This document shows positions 11,832 through 26,527 of a DNA stretch of 37,613 bases, piece after piece. The DNA comes from a virus: the IMG/VR virus record IMGVR_UViG_3300047332_000042, positions 1-37,613 of that record; one strand, 5' to 3'. A program made the position numbers and the translations under genes. The notes beneath the pieces were generated by a model. It searched no databases, was not told the DNA's origin, and was given only the letters and a program-made list of their open reading frames with translations. Each line of letters begins with the position of its first letter. Positions within the stretch are counted from its first letter, which is position 1.

Positions 11832-12562
11832 CACCAGGCCCCGCCCTTGCTCAGGAGTTGCGCGAGGATCGCGTTCTGCTGCGTTTGCTGCGACGTCTGC
11901 ATCGGGTACATGCGGCCGGCCGGCGAGGCCGGATCGGGCAGAACGGTGTCGCCTCCTCCGGGCGTCGAAGCACCATAGCTGACCGGCGAGGCCGGATCGG
12001 GCGCAACGGTGTCGCCTCCTCCGGGCGTCGAAGCACCATAGCCCGGCGAGGCCGACGTGCCGCCAGGGTTGACGAGCAGGCTCGGGCCATTCGGGCCGTA
12101 GCCGCCGACACCATAGCTGACCGGCGAGGCCGGATCGGGCAGAACGGTGTCGCCTCCTCCGGGCGTCGAAGCACCATAGCCCGGCGAGGCCGACGTGCCG
12201 CCAGGGTTGACGAGCAGGTTCGGGCCATTCGGGCCGTAGCCGCCGATCGTGCCGGGGGCAGTGGCTCCAGTGCCCTGCGCACCGGGCGCCTGCGCGCCAC
12301 CGACGGGGATGGACGGAGTTGCCCCGTCGCCGCCGTTGGGCACCGGCAGGATGGTCGACTTCGAGGGCATCAGCGGCATCTGGCCTTGGCCGAAGCCGCC
12401 GCCGCTCATCTGCGCGGCCTGCAGCATCTGCGGGCTCCACGCTTGGGGCGCGATGCCGACCGGCGTGGGCTGCGCGGCCGCCGGCATGAGCGGGTTCGGC
12501 GCGGTGCCACCCAGGCCGCCGGGCGTGGGCGAAGCTCCTGCGAGGGGCGTTCCGAGATTCAT
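11831..12562 (-). CDS. low-complexity virion-operon protein with duplicated segments, 243 aa
   Basis: The protein is dominated by Gly, Pro, Ala and Ser. Its C-terminal half consists of duplicated blocks: block X (GYGASTPGGGDTVLPDPASP) is present three times and block Y (GGYGPNGPSLLVNPGGTSAS) twice, in nucleotide order X-X-Y-X-Y along the plus strand. It ends with a helix (QQTQQNAILAQLLSKGGAW). Near-identity of the DNA copies suggests recent in-frame duplication. It is probably a disordered structural or linker protein; no family is recognised. Confidence 0.55.
   Translation of the reverse strand: MNLGTPLAGASPTPGGLGGTAPNPLMPAAAQPTPVGIAPQAWSPQMLQAAQMSGGGFGQGQMPLMPSKSTILPVPNGGDGATPSIPVGGAQAPGAQGTGATAPGTIGGYGPNGPNLLVNPGGTSASPGYGASTPGGGDTVLPDPASPVSYGVGGYGPNGPSLLVNPGGTSASPGYGASTPGGGDTVAPDPASPVSYGASTPGGGDTVLPDPASPAGRMYPMQTSQQTQQNAILAQLLSKGGAW
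11920..12246. repeat. nearly identical in-frame duplications (X-X-Y-X-Y)
   Basis: Block X (60 bp) lies at 11920-11979, 11983-12042 and 12121-12180. Block Y (66 bp) lies at 12043-12108 and 12181-12246. The X-Y pair is repeated with an offset of 138 bp. Copies differ at only one or two positions, and all offsets (63 and 138) are multiples of three, so the reading frame is kept. Confidence 0.9.
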
Positions 12563-15941: not shown

Positions 15942-16897
15942 CAGAACGTGCCCGACCCGTAGCCGGTGTCGGGGATCTGGTTGCTCGTCAGCAGCGCCAC
16001 GTCGGGCGTCTGGACGTCGGTGCGCAGAATGCGCGCTCCGGTGTCGTGGCCGATCTCGCGCTGGATGGCGCGGTCCCACGTCTCGTAGAGCTGCTGGTAG
16101 TCGAGCCCCTTGGCCGCCTTGTAGCGCCACATGATGCCGAGCGTCATGAGGTCGTCTTCGAGCACGTACGTGTCGCCGTCGGTGGTGAAGGAGCTTGCGG
16201 CGACCGTGCCGCCGGTCATCGCCCAGTTGAGCGAGTAGTACTCGAACACCAGCAGATTGCTGTCGTACGGGATCGGATCGACGTAAAAGAGGCTGCCCAT
16301 GAGGCGCCACCTGCGCCGCGGCCCGGTGGGCGAGAGCCCCGACTTGAGCACCTGCCACTCCTGCGGCGTGAGCGGCCCGAAGAGCTGCCAGCGATAGCCG
16401 CGGTCCCACTGCGTGCCGGGGATCGAGAAGTTGTAGTCGCTTGGCAGCGAGTAAGACTCCTGCCCGAAGGCAATCGACGTGTTCGTGCTCGTAAGCGAGG
16501 CCACGTTGCCGACGGTGACCTGGTTGCCGACGACTGCGGTGACGTACGTCGGGTATGGAAATCCCGTCGCGTTCGAGCCGCCGCTCGTGCACACCGCCCA
16601 GCCGATCTGGGGAGCTTGAGTCGGCGGGGTGCCGATCGTGATGACGTTGCTGCCTGTCGTGAACGAGCAGTTCGGGATGATCCCGGTGCTCTGCACGTTG
16701 AAGGTGTACTCCTTGCGAAGCTCCTGCCAGCCCCAGGCCGAGGTCGAGCGCTTCGAGGTCTCCTTGCCTTCGCGGTTGGCGAGGGCAAGGAGCTGCGTCG
16801 CGGTCAGGTCGGCCGCGTTGGTCGTGCTGACGACAGTGTCCAGCCCCAGTTCGCTGCAGGCGTCGTTGACCATCGTCAGGATGGTCTTCTTCGCCAC
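15941..16897 (-). CDS. head-tail adaptor/tail tubular-type protein, 318 aa
   Basis: It starts with GTG after a GAGG site. The N-terminal helical part (TMVNDACSELGLDTV, ATQLLALANREGKETSKR) and later LPSDYNFSIPGTQWDRGYRW and LTPQEWQVLKSGLSPTGPRR are the usual features of P22 gp4/T7 gp11-type connector proteins that join portal and tail. The 70-135 region is a beta insertion. Its place next to the hub gene supports this. Confidence 0.7.
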   Translation of the reverse strand: MAKKTILTMVNDACSELGLDTVVSTTNAADLTATQLLALANREGKETSKRSTSAWGWQELRKEYTFNVQSTGIIPNCSFTTGSNVITIGTPPTQAPQIGWAVCTSGGSNATGFPYPTYVTAVVGNQVTVGNVASLTSTNTSIAFGQESYSLPSDYNFSIPGTQWDRGYRWQLFGPLTPQEWQVLKSGLSPTGPRRRWRLMGSLFYVDPIPYDSNLLVFEYYSLNWAMTGGTVAASSFTTDGDTYVLEDDLMTLGIMWRYKAAKGLDYQQLYETWDRAIQREIGHDTGARILRTDVQTPDVALLTSNQIPDTGYGSGTF

Positions 16898-24370: not shown

Positions 24371-24633
24371 ACGAAGATCGCGGTGCCTGCCGCGGTCGTC
24401 AAGGCGATGTAGAGCCCGGAGGCGAAGGCGGCAGGGATCGGGTTCCAGCCGGTGTTGATGACGAGGGCGACGCCAAAGTGCGTGCCGCCCGTGCCGGTGC
24501 CGTCGTACAGGTCAGCCGTGCCGGCGACGCTGGCGTAGAAGCCGAGCAGTGCGCCTTGGCTCGATTTGACCTGCAGCGCCGCGCCGGCGCCGATGGCGAC
24601 CGGAGACCCGGCCTGAATGTTGCCGATGCTCAT
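24367..24633 (-). CDS. small virion-type beta protein, 88 aa
   Basis: This small protein is made mostly of beta-prone segments: AGSPVAIGAGAALQVKSSQG, LLGFYASVAGTADLYDGTGT and ASGLYIALTTAAGTAIFV. Comparable small proteins with an LLGFYV...LYD pattern accompany head genes in other phages and may be decoration proteins. It overlaps both terminase and portal genes by 4 bases. The function is not established. Confidence 0.55.
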   Translation of the reverse strand: MSIGNIQAGSPVAIGAGAALQVKSSQGALLGFYASVAGTADLYDGTGTGGTHFGVALVINTGWNPIPAAFASGLYIALTTAAGTAIFV

Positions 24634-26072
24634 TGGAAACCGTCGCTTTCGAGGAGTGCGTCGTCGCGCTTTTGCCAATCGGACAAGTCGGCGAACGTCG
24701 CGTTGTGGAGGAACTTGGGCTCGGGTCGAGCCGGCTTCGCGGGAGGCGTCAGCTCGAGCATCTGGCAGCCGTAGCTGAAGGCATCGCCCGGATGAGAGGC
24801 CCAGTCGTGGACGGGCTCCTTGCTCATCTCCTTGGCCTCGGTGTCGTAGTCGAAGTGCCAGCTCGTCAGGCCCGAGATGCCGTCCTCGCAGGGCTCCTCC
24901 TCGAACCAGCAGCGGTCGACGACGCGTCTTGCAGCGTTGATGCGGTCGCTGATCTTGGTCTGCGGCACGATGCGCACATGCTCGGTGCCGAACTGGCGGA
25001 TGAAGCGCTCGGCCGGCGAGTGCTTCGTCGCGAACGTCTTGGCCTTGGCGTCGTGCGGCAGCCAGATCTTGTCGAGCCTCATGCCACGCTCGGCCAACCG
25101 TTCTTCGAGCTTGTCGGCCCACTCGTCGGCGTCCATTCCGGTGCCGCCCATGTAGTCGACGATGCCGAAGCCGTCGGCGCGCGGCTGCCAGAACCACCAG
25201 CTCGCGGTATCGCGAAAGCCGATGTCGCTGCTGATGCAGACGGGCGCGCCTTCCGGGTCGAAGACGACGCCGTCGGTGACGATGCGGCCCTCGGCTCGCG
25301 CTCTCGACATCCAGCGGCCGAGCACCGCGCCGAGGATTGCCGCATCGAAGCTGACGAGGTACTCCTGGTCGTACATCGACTGGCCGAGGTCGACGCCGAA
25401 ATCAGCCTTGTAGCTGGCAAGCTCGGCGGCCAACTGCTCGGCGGAGAAGACGTTCGTCTGCAGCGCGGACAGGCATTGCGCGAAGGCGCCGGCCTCCTTC
25501 TGCGCTGCGCCGAATGTCTTGAAGGCGTGGTTCTTGCCGCGCGGCGTGCTGATGAAGATCTGCCAGCCGCCGTTCTCGGCGAGGATCGGCCGAAGATAGG
25601 CCCGCGTGCTGGGGTTGCTGAGCGCCCACTCGGAGTAGACGATGCCGGCCGGAGCGGAGCCCACGAGGCTGTTGAAGTTGTCGGAGCCGACGACCTGCCA
25701 AGTCGAGCCGTTGACGAACTCAATGGACATCTCGTTTTCGCGCGTGTTCTTGCGCAGCGCCAGCGGAAAGGCCTCGTCGATGCGCTTCCTGCCGGTGTGC
25801 GGGTTGACAGCCGCCCAGATCGCCTTGCGCGCCTGGCTGGCCTCGGGGAGCATGTGCCAGTAGCCGGCGACGCGCTCGAACGCTGCGACGCAGGTCCGAT
25901 GCAGGCAGATTTCGTCTTTTCCTTGTTTCCCCCGCCCCTTCCAGGACGGGGGACGTACACCCGAGCGGCGATGCCAGATTAGCTCGGCATGCCGCCCACC
26001 GTTCTCGAAGTAGTTCCACGCGGCCATTTGGTAAGGCCGCGGGCGCCAGTTGTTGGGGATCCGAACCTTCAT
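24630..26072 (-). CDS. terL: terminase large subunit with an insertion at the P-loop, 480 aa
   Basis: This is the packaging ATPase-nuclease. A P-loop is expected at HRR(A/S)GKDE, but here 13 extra residues (38-50, GVRPPSWKGRGKQ) separate HRRS from GKDE (51-54). Walker B is IVYSEWA with catalytic Glu148, and the coupling motif is FISTPRG at 173-179. Nuclease acidic residues are likely Asp283 (SSDIGFRD), Asp341 (LPHDAKA) and Asp430 (HPGDAFSY). All other motifs look intact. The small subunit lies directly upstream, with 26 nt between and a weak ribosome site. Confidence 0.9.
   Translation of the reverse strand: MKVRIPNNWRPRPYQMAAWNYFENGGRHAELIWHRRSGVRPPSWKGRGKQGKDEICLHRTCVAAFERVAGYWHMLPEASQARKAIWAAVNPHTGRKRIDEAFPLALRKNTRENEMSIEFVNGSTWQVVGSDNFNSLVGSAPAGIVYSEWALSNPSTRAYLRPILAENGGWQIFISTPRGKNHAFKTFGAAQKEAGAFAQCLSALQTNVFSAEQLAAELASYKADFGVDLGQSMYDQEYLVSFDAAILGAVLGRWMSRARAEGRIVTDGVVFDPEGAPVCISSDIGFRDTASWWFWQPRADGFGIVDYMGGTGMDADEWADKLEERLAERGMRLDKIWLPHDAKAKTFATKHSPAERFIRQFGTEHVRIVPQTKISDRINAARRVVDRCWFEEEPCEDGISGLTSWHFDYDTEAKEMSKEPVHDWASHPGDAFSYGCQMLELTPPAKPARPEPKFLHNATFADLSDWQKRDDALLESDGFQ
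25923..25961 (-). other. 39-nt in-frame insertion with mRNA hairpin in the terminase P-loop
   Basis: Between the Ser codon of HRRS and the Gly codon of GKDE lie 39 nt without a stop. In the mRNA sense, 25953-25928 folds as an 11-bp stem (U-A, five C-G, G-C, U-G, two C-G, U-G) closed by a GGAA tetraloop of the GNRA class. The two wobble pairs form only in the mRNA strand. Removing the block would restore the usual HRRSGKDE sequence. Confidence 0.75.
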
Positions 26073-26098: not shown

Positions 26099-26527
26099 CT
26101 ATTTCCCCCCGTCGCTGTAGCGCACGATCTCGACCGTCACGCCCACCGATCCGCCATGGGCGACGTCGAGCTTGTCGCCGTAGCGCTTCGGGTCCCACTT
26201 CGCAAGCAGCTTCAGGCGCGTCTCGATCTGCAGCTTGCGATGGCCGAGCATGTCGCCGCGCTTGGTCTCGATGCCGCCATCCGCCTTTTTCGTCGTCTCG
26301 ACCCCTTCGAGGGGGGTGTCGGCGATCTCCAGCGCCTCGTGCGCGATGGCGTCCCAGCCGCTGACGCGCGCTCGTGCCATGGCCGCCGCGAAGTCGGCGT
26401 TGGCCTCCGACCAGTCGTAGACCGTGCGCCACGCCGGCATGCCCTTGCTGCGACAGATTTCCCGCAGATTGACGCCTTCTGCGAGCCGCTGGCAGATCAC
26501 GTCGGCCTTGGCCTGGTCGTACGCCAT
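26099..26527 (-). CDS. terS: terminase small subunit, 142 aa
   Basis: The N-terminus (QAKADVICQRLAEGVNLREI) followed by MPAWRTVYDWSEANADFAAA is a helix-turn-helix DNA-binding arrangement usual in this small-terminase type, which recognises the packaging site. The C-terminus has LKLLAKWDPKRYGDKLDVAH, also diagnostic of the family. It lies just upstream of the large subunit. Confidence 0.85.
   Translation of the reverse strand: MAYDQAKADVICQRLAEGVNLREICRSKGMPAWRTVYDWSEANADFAAAMARARVSGWDAIAHEALEIADTPLEGVETTKKADGGIETKRGDMLGHRKLQIETRLKLLAKWDPKRYGDKLDVAHGGSVGVTVEIVRYSDGGK

Follow-up and report, generated by a model that had tools for sequence, protein, structure and literature searches.

A hairpin-forming insert in the Walker A motif of a phage terminase gene as a putative translational bypassing element

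A 39-nt hairpin-forming insert that splits the Walker A motif of a phage terminase large subunit gene (terL) is proposed to be a programmed translational bypassing element, in which the ribosome would pass from one glycine codon to another, working like the bypass in phage T4 gene 60; a probability of roughly 75% is assigned to this reading. Skipping by the ribosome, and not excision from the RNA, as well as the exact take-off and landing codons are what we infer from the comparison of the insert with its relatives. Related inserts with stop codons or frameshifts at the same site, a covarying hairpin and purifying selection on the codons behind the insert carry the argument.

The interrupted terminase gene

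The stretch of DNA analysed, hereafter the window, is the whole 37.6-kb virus sequence IMGVR_UViG_3300047332_000042 of IMG/VR (37,613 nt). The identity of terL is supported by a match to the PHROG terminase large subunit family (phrog_2, E 2.4e-17) and by tblastn matches to annotated terminases. The gene, its neighbours and the parts of the proposed element are arranged as follows:

24630..26072, minus strand: terL, gene for the terminase large subunit (480 codons when read without interruption)
26099..26527, minus strand: terminase small subunit gene, neighbour of terL (phrog_1482, E 7.6e-33)
24370-21866, minus strand: portal gene
25959..26072, minus strand: first coding part, MKVRIPNN...HRRSG, delimited by alignment with relatives, its last codon being the putative take-off codon
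25959..25961, minus strand: putative take-off glycine codon GGT, the proposed P-site codon at the start of the bypass
25923..25958, minus strand: putative non-coding gap of the element, 36 nt, absent at empty sites and with a layout shared with the other elements
25928..25953, minus strand: hairpin with an 11-bp stem (25953-25943 with 25938-25928) and a GGAA tetraloop (25942-25939), supported by folding, shuffling and covariation
25929..25933, minus strand: invariant G-tract on the 3' side of the stem (C:G pairs unchanged throughout the element family)
25920..25922, minus strand: putative landing glycine codon GGA, the glycine of the Walker A GK, a role suggested by the element family
24630..25919, minus strand: second coding part, from KDEICLHRT... 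up to the stop codon, a part under purifying selection in relatives with out-of-frame inserts

The Walker A motif of the window terL reads HRRSG-VRPPSWKGRGKQ-GKDE where relatives read HRRSGKDE, and the insert (25961-25923) is 39 nt long, in frame and free of stop codons. The initial annotation had placed a possible skip between GGT at 25961-25959 and GGA at 25922-25920 around such an insert; these coordinates are correct, and the 11-bp stem, the GGAA loop and the two G.U wobble pairs described with them were all reproduced. Alignment with terminase homologues confirmed the gap as exact: the aligned relatives show HRR-x-GKDE with no intervening residues and, in comparison with relatives 52-65% identical, the insert is the sole disruption of this region. 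An empty site was found in about 75 viral loci and in some 50 from genomes or prophages, 101 of them distinct, with the glycine codon being GGC in 63, GGT in 20, GGG in 11 and GGA in seven; coding residues at the insert position were seen in none of the empty-site relatives. The statement that the family has no residues at this position thus holds for 101 distinct sites, but not for the family as a whole, as other terminases with inserts exist, and these exceptions provide the central evidence. An ordinary length variant of the terminase P-loop, which would have refuted the initial reading, is not borne out, since the empty-site relatives lack the residues and the other filled copies are not open reading frames.

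Related inserts, their structure and their skipping

Among the first 80 relatives three lacked a simple P-loop, namely L026, which lies on the same contig as L096, and L087 and L088, which correspond to contigs L093 and L090. Two further cases, L094 and L098, were retrieved by a pattern scan of IMG/VR for any insert of 25-55 nt at the terL site. In L096, HRRSG is followed by a hairpin with an in-frame TAG and then by GKDE (insert of 39 nt, as in the window), while the inserts in L093/L090 (43 nt, containing TGA), L094 (40 nt, TAA) and L098 (43 nt, TAG) shift the frame. Altogether, five distinct inserts in six terminases are located between the identical two terL codons. Two broad scans for any insert of 25-55 nt between W-x-R-R-x-G and GKD gave no additional terminases, and the pattern CCCCC..GGGGG..GKD without upstream context returned only the known elements and chance matches.

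An element was equally found outside the terminases. The initial annotation had suggested a search for the hairpin in other conserved genes, which failed in its literal form, as the window hairpin had no identical or nearly identical counterpart in viral contigs or genome contigs, gave only short chance matches in phages and plasmids and occurred just once inside the window at up to three mismatches; a scan for the element layout in any gene without terminase context, however, gave 14 matches including L341. This match was judged a real element, the other non-terminase matches resembling terminators or chance. The interrupted gene encodes a phage glycosyltransferase (downstream part phrog_7162, E 3.8e-43), which breaks off after ...PSDKTGVG with GCTTAACCCCCACTCTTTTTTAGGGTGGGGGAAGTATAAAA, a frame-shifting insert of 44 nt with TAA two codons past the take-off codon, and resumes at GGT AAA TTT AGG. 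A homologue from an uncultured phage aligns over query positions 13-194 (35% identity), thereby spanning the junction, and reads VLTSDVDGIGYYRNFMPH there, which represents an empty site. Directly upstream of the interrupted gene, at about 1040-1243 on the plus strand of L341, lies a frame-broken fragment with a weak resemblance to an endonuclease C-terminus.

The six inserts follow one plan, a GGY codon, 5-6 nt, a hairpin of 10-12 bp, 3-10 nt and a landing GGN codon followed by lysine, with a distance of 36-41 nt between the glycine codons in all elements. The position of the take-off codon is common to all six (GGT in five, GGC in one), the spacer behind it begins with G-T/C, and the main stem consists of a base of C5-6:G5-6 with five variable upper pairs, closed by the loops GGAA, UUAG, GAGA, UACG, UUAAAU and UUUUU, which include the C(UACG)G and GNRA types. 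Take-off and landing codons pair as GGT/GGA in the window, L096 and L094, as GGC/GGC in L093/L090 and as GGT/GGT in L098 and L341.

Selection for RNA structure, which the initial annotation had surmised from the wobble pairs, is borne out by full covariation of the upper stem. When the stems of the five terminase inserts are aligned, 98% of the cells are paired and five pairs are changed on both sides, giving a covariation score of 0.600 against a shuffle mean of 0.168, a value reached in none of 500 shuffles and roughly halved or worse when the partner is shifted by one column; automatic alignment of the elements mis-registers the two loop sizes. The window hairpin folds with -23.0 kcal/mol in the sense strand versus -16.6 in the antisense strand, with none of 500 dinucleotide shuffles folding equally well, and for each of the five terminase inserts at most two of 500 shuffles were as good. 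As two or more G.U pairs occur in every stem and the sense strand folds more stably than the antisense strand in each element, the selected structure is that of the mRNA.

Stop codons occur in five of the six inserts, as the second codon past take-off in L094, L098 and L341 and later in L096 and L093, with none in the window, and the frame is shifted in four (L093/L090, L094, L098 and L341). Reassignment of a stop codon was rejected as TAA, TAG and TGA are all present among the inserts. Read from the take-off codon, L094 gives GGT GTT TAA, and in its landing frame a TAA immediately precedes GGA, so that neither readthrough nor a simple frameshift joins the two halves. Separate initiation cannot rebuild the P-loop in L096, L093/L090 and L094, as none of them has ATG, GTG or TTG before GK in the landing frame; L098 has one GTG. 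Still, the part downstream of the insert is functional and under strong purifying selection in insert-bearing relatives: the 400 codons behind the insert differ between L093 and L090 by 65 synonymous and eight nonsynonymous changes (dN/dS 0.029), and L096, in comparison with its empty-site relatives L034 and L036 (DNA identity 86-87%), has acquired 62 synonymous and one nonsynonymous private change. Stops and frameshifts in combination with this selection indicate that the insert is non-coding in the genes with such copies and must be skipped.

That the inserts are parasitic palindromes which have inactivated terL, leaving dead phages, is highly improbable: although the sporadic occurrence of the element among relatives would agree with decay, codons on both sides of the insert are still under strong purifying selection, the neighbouring portal genes are intact and phages that have diverged carry the insert at precisely the same position. 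Palindromic elements of the Rickettsia RPE type are hairpin-forming inserts inside genes that keep the frame and are translated. The present elements resemble them as hairpin-forming inserts inside a gene, but differ in that four of six copies shift the frame and five of six hold stops. A small palindromic element inserting in frame, considered in the initial annotation, is consequently rejected, since the frame is not kept in those four copies and L096 contains a stop.

With an open and in-frame copy, the window insert by itself might simply be translated into a longer P-loop, in which G-x4-GK would be rebuilt as GRGKQGK, as had been envisaged from the start. This is now quite improbable, given the element with stops or frameshifts at the same site in four other terminases, the selection of the hairpin as RNA and a predicted loss of confidence in the ATPase fold. 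With the insert translated, AlphaFold2 gave a pLDDT of 31-38 in the ATPase region against 52-81 and the usual strand-loop-helix for an empty-site relative modelled from the same number of aligned sequences, a comparison of one model pair on shallow alignments that consequently serves as supporting evidence only. On the other hand, the skip from GGT to GGA is strongly favoured by relatives of the same layout that combine stops or frameshifts with purifying selection. As the window copy is in frame and stop-free, its own bypass is deduced from those relatives, like which it presumably behaves.

Bypassing and the closest known systems

In the proposed bypass, the ribosome would translate terL as far as GGT, the glycine codon that ends HRRSG, where the very stable hairpin 5-6 nt beyond the take-off codon would block the A site or the entry channel. 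The peptidyl-tRNA-Gly would then release GGT and the ribosome would cross the 36-nt gap, with the folded hairpin leaving about 10 single-stranded nucleotides between the two glycine codons, whereupon the tRNA would re-pair at the glycine codon GGA, translation would continue with KDE and the product would contain a normal HRRSGKDE Walker A motif. The G-tract at 25929..25933 is a possible Shine-Dalgarno-like landing aid.

Removal of the insert from the mRNA by RNA processing, as a minimal intron excised by a nuclease with rejoining by a ligase, would lead to the identical protein product and equally explain stops, frameshifts, hairpin covariation and selection. It is nevertheless considered unlikely, as 39-44 nt is far below the size of group I and II introns, an Rfam intron match is lacking in the window, no boundary sequence conserved beyond GG was seen in the six elements and a phage RNA ligase was absent from the proteins scanned, which represent a subset of all; moreover, the in-frame glycine codon at both ends is predicted by bypass and unnecessary for splicing. 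These codons and the unconserved boundaries are what separates the two mechanisms in the present data. A group I or II intron as such was rejected on the grounds of insert size and the missing Rfam match. Bypassing is the simplest mechanism as every insert has an in-frame glycine codon at either end, a feature shared with T4 gene 60.

During translation of T4 gene 60, the ribosome departs from a glycine codon and resumes at a glycine codon beyond a 50-nt gap (PMC11194080), with landing modestly helped by a Shine-Dalgarno-like sequence. Shared with this system are one protein encoded in two coding parts around a non-coding gap, which for the window is concluded by homology, and a glycine codon at take-off and landing (PMC11194080, PMC5009743, PMC2988022). 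Equally shared are an RNA hairpin at take-off, which here covaries and lies 5-6 nt beyond the take-off codon, the presence of a stop close to take-off in several of the copies and a homing endonuclease nearby in some. The start of the main stem at nucleotide 9-10, counted as for T4 gene 60, appears to be close to the T4 range. Unlike T4 gene 60, the interrupted gene is a terminase with a different hairpin and a shorter gap (36-41 nt between the glycine codons). The matched GGA/GGA of T4 is replaced by GGT/GGA in the window, L096 and L094, while the codons of the other copies match; this is a real difference from T4 that counts against bypassing. No single standard bacterial tRNA-Gly reads both GGT and GGA, and tRNA genes were found neither in the window nor in the filled contigs, so that a phage tRNA-Gly does not explain the mismatch. 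Also counting against bypassing, the codon after take-off encodes valine or alanine and is in no copy a stop as in T4. Nor is a nascent-peptide signal known for the elements, the peptide upstream of take-off resembling an ordinary terminase N-terminus in which no such signal was identified. As the window has neither the exact codon match nor the adjacent stop, its element is described as working like T4 bypassing and not as a member of that class.

A second terminase case is the candidate bypass in Streptomyces phage Hau3, for which a link to the rare UUA codon has been proposed (PMC5009743). In this terminase (L340, JX182369, about 2602-2650) the sequence GGC TTACTCC GGT AAG GAC leads from KGWG to KDP. 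As in the present elements, a terminase large subunit would undergo a glycine-to-glycine hop at the same Walker A GK glycine, a connection not found stated in PMC5009743, although the Hau3 candidate has a gap of 7 nt and no hairpin element. The candidate hop at the identical GK glycine makes this codon a recurrent site. The byp elements of Magnusiomyces mitochondria, with 81 copies (PMC5009743), are comparable as short skipped blocks in several genes which do not keep the frame and whose codons are not always matched (PMC5009743), but they are read by mitochondrial ribosomes with relaxed decoding, whereas the present elements belong to bacteriophages.

Distribution, origin and significance

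The filled copies require at least four to five changes when placed on a tree of 124 terminases, a sporadic occurrence suggesting that the element is mobile or has been repeatedly gained and lost. The strict element pattern occurred in none of 398 Pseudomonadota genomes, and a scan of a 2.5-Mb sequence set for a hairpin interrupting two joined frames gave the known elements and two weak matches judged to be chance. Rather probably, phages harbour a hitherto undescribed family of bypassing elements that are small (about 40 nt; GGY-spacer-hairpin-spacer-GGN) and probably mobile, settle at Gly-Lys codons of various genes, do no harm because the ribosome hops over them and form a bacterial counterpart of the mitochondrial byps. 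T4 gene 60 and yeast mitochondria have been reviewed as well-supported cases of bypassing, with other occurrences few or unproven (PMC5009743). No earlier report of such elements was found in the open-access literature searched.

The question of origin is a separate one. Tentatively, and with doubts prevailing, the element might have arisen or might serve as protection of the P-loop target from a homing endonuclease, with the bypass making it harmless, a scenario compatible with bypassing. An HNH endonuclease-like open reading frame adjoins terL on the opposite strand in L098 (3283-3774, plus strand; phrog_2255, E 3.7e-10), HNH genes lie upstream of terL in L096 (phrog_131) and upstream of the Hau3 terminase, the fragment directly upstream in L341 is weakly endonuclease-like, and T4 gene 60 has been suggested to have arisen in a similar way (PMC5009743, PMC2988022). 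However, no gene of this kind was recognised beside the window terL, and HNH genes are in any case widespread among phages.

If the bypassing interpretation is true, what has been a single model case would become a comparative system of six natural variants from two gene families, with compensatory changes in their hairpins; such a system would show which of the features codon match, stop, nascent peptide and hairpin geometry are needed. Equally, gene callers miss or truncate such genes, so that in these contigs the essential ATPase motif of the terminase is invisible to open reading frame prediction.

Several minor observations were made along with this analysis. The terminase loci L099 and L101 agree in both length and identity of the match; the former belongs to a Caulobacterales MAG and the latter to a beta-proteobacterial MAG by assignment, and they are probably one phage binned twice. 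In the window, a 138-nt direct repeat (98% identical) is located within a late-region open reading frame at 11971-12246, and a 14-nt inverted repeat (93%) in a tail protein gene at 16760-16792, the strongest 36-nt fold of the plus strand, looks like ordinary coding sequence. Both contig ends (1-250 and 37338-37613) lie inside one 12-bp tandem repeat that encodes A-V-G-G repeats in the protein, suggesting that the genome is circular or permuted and that its assembly broke within a repeat gene.
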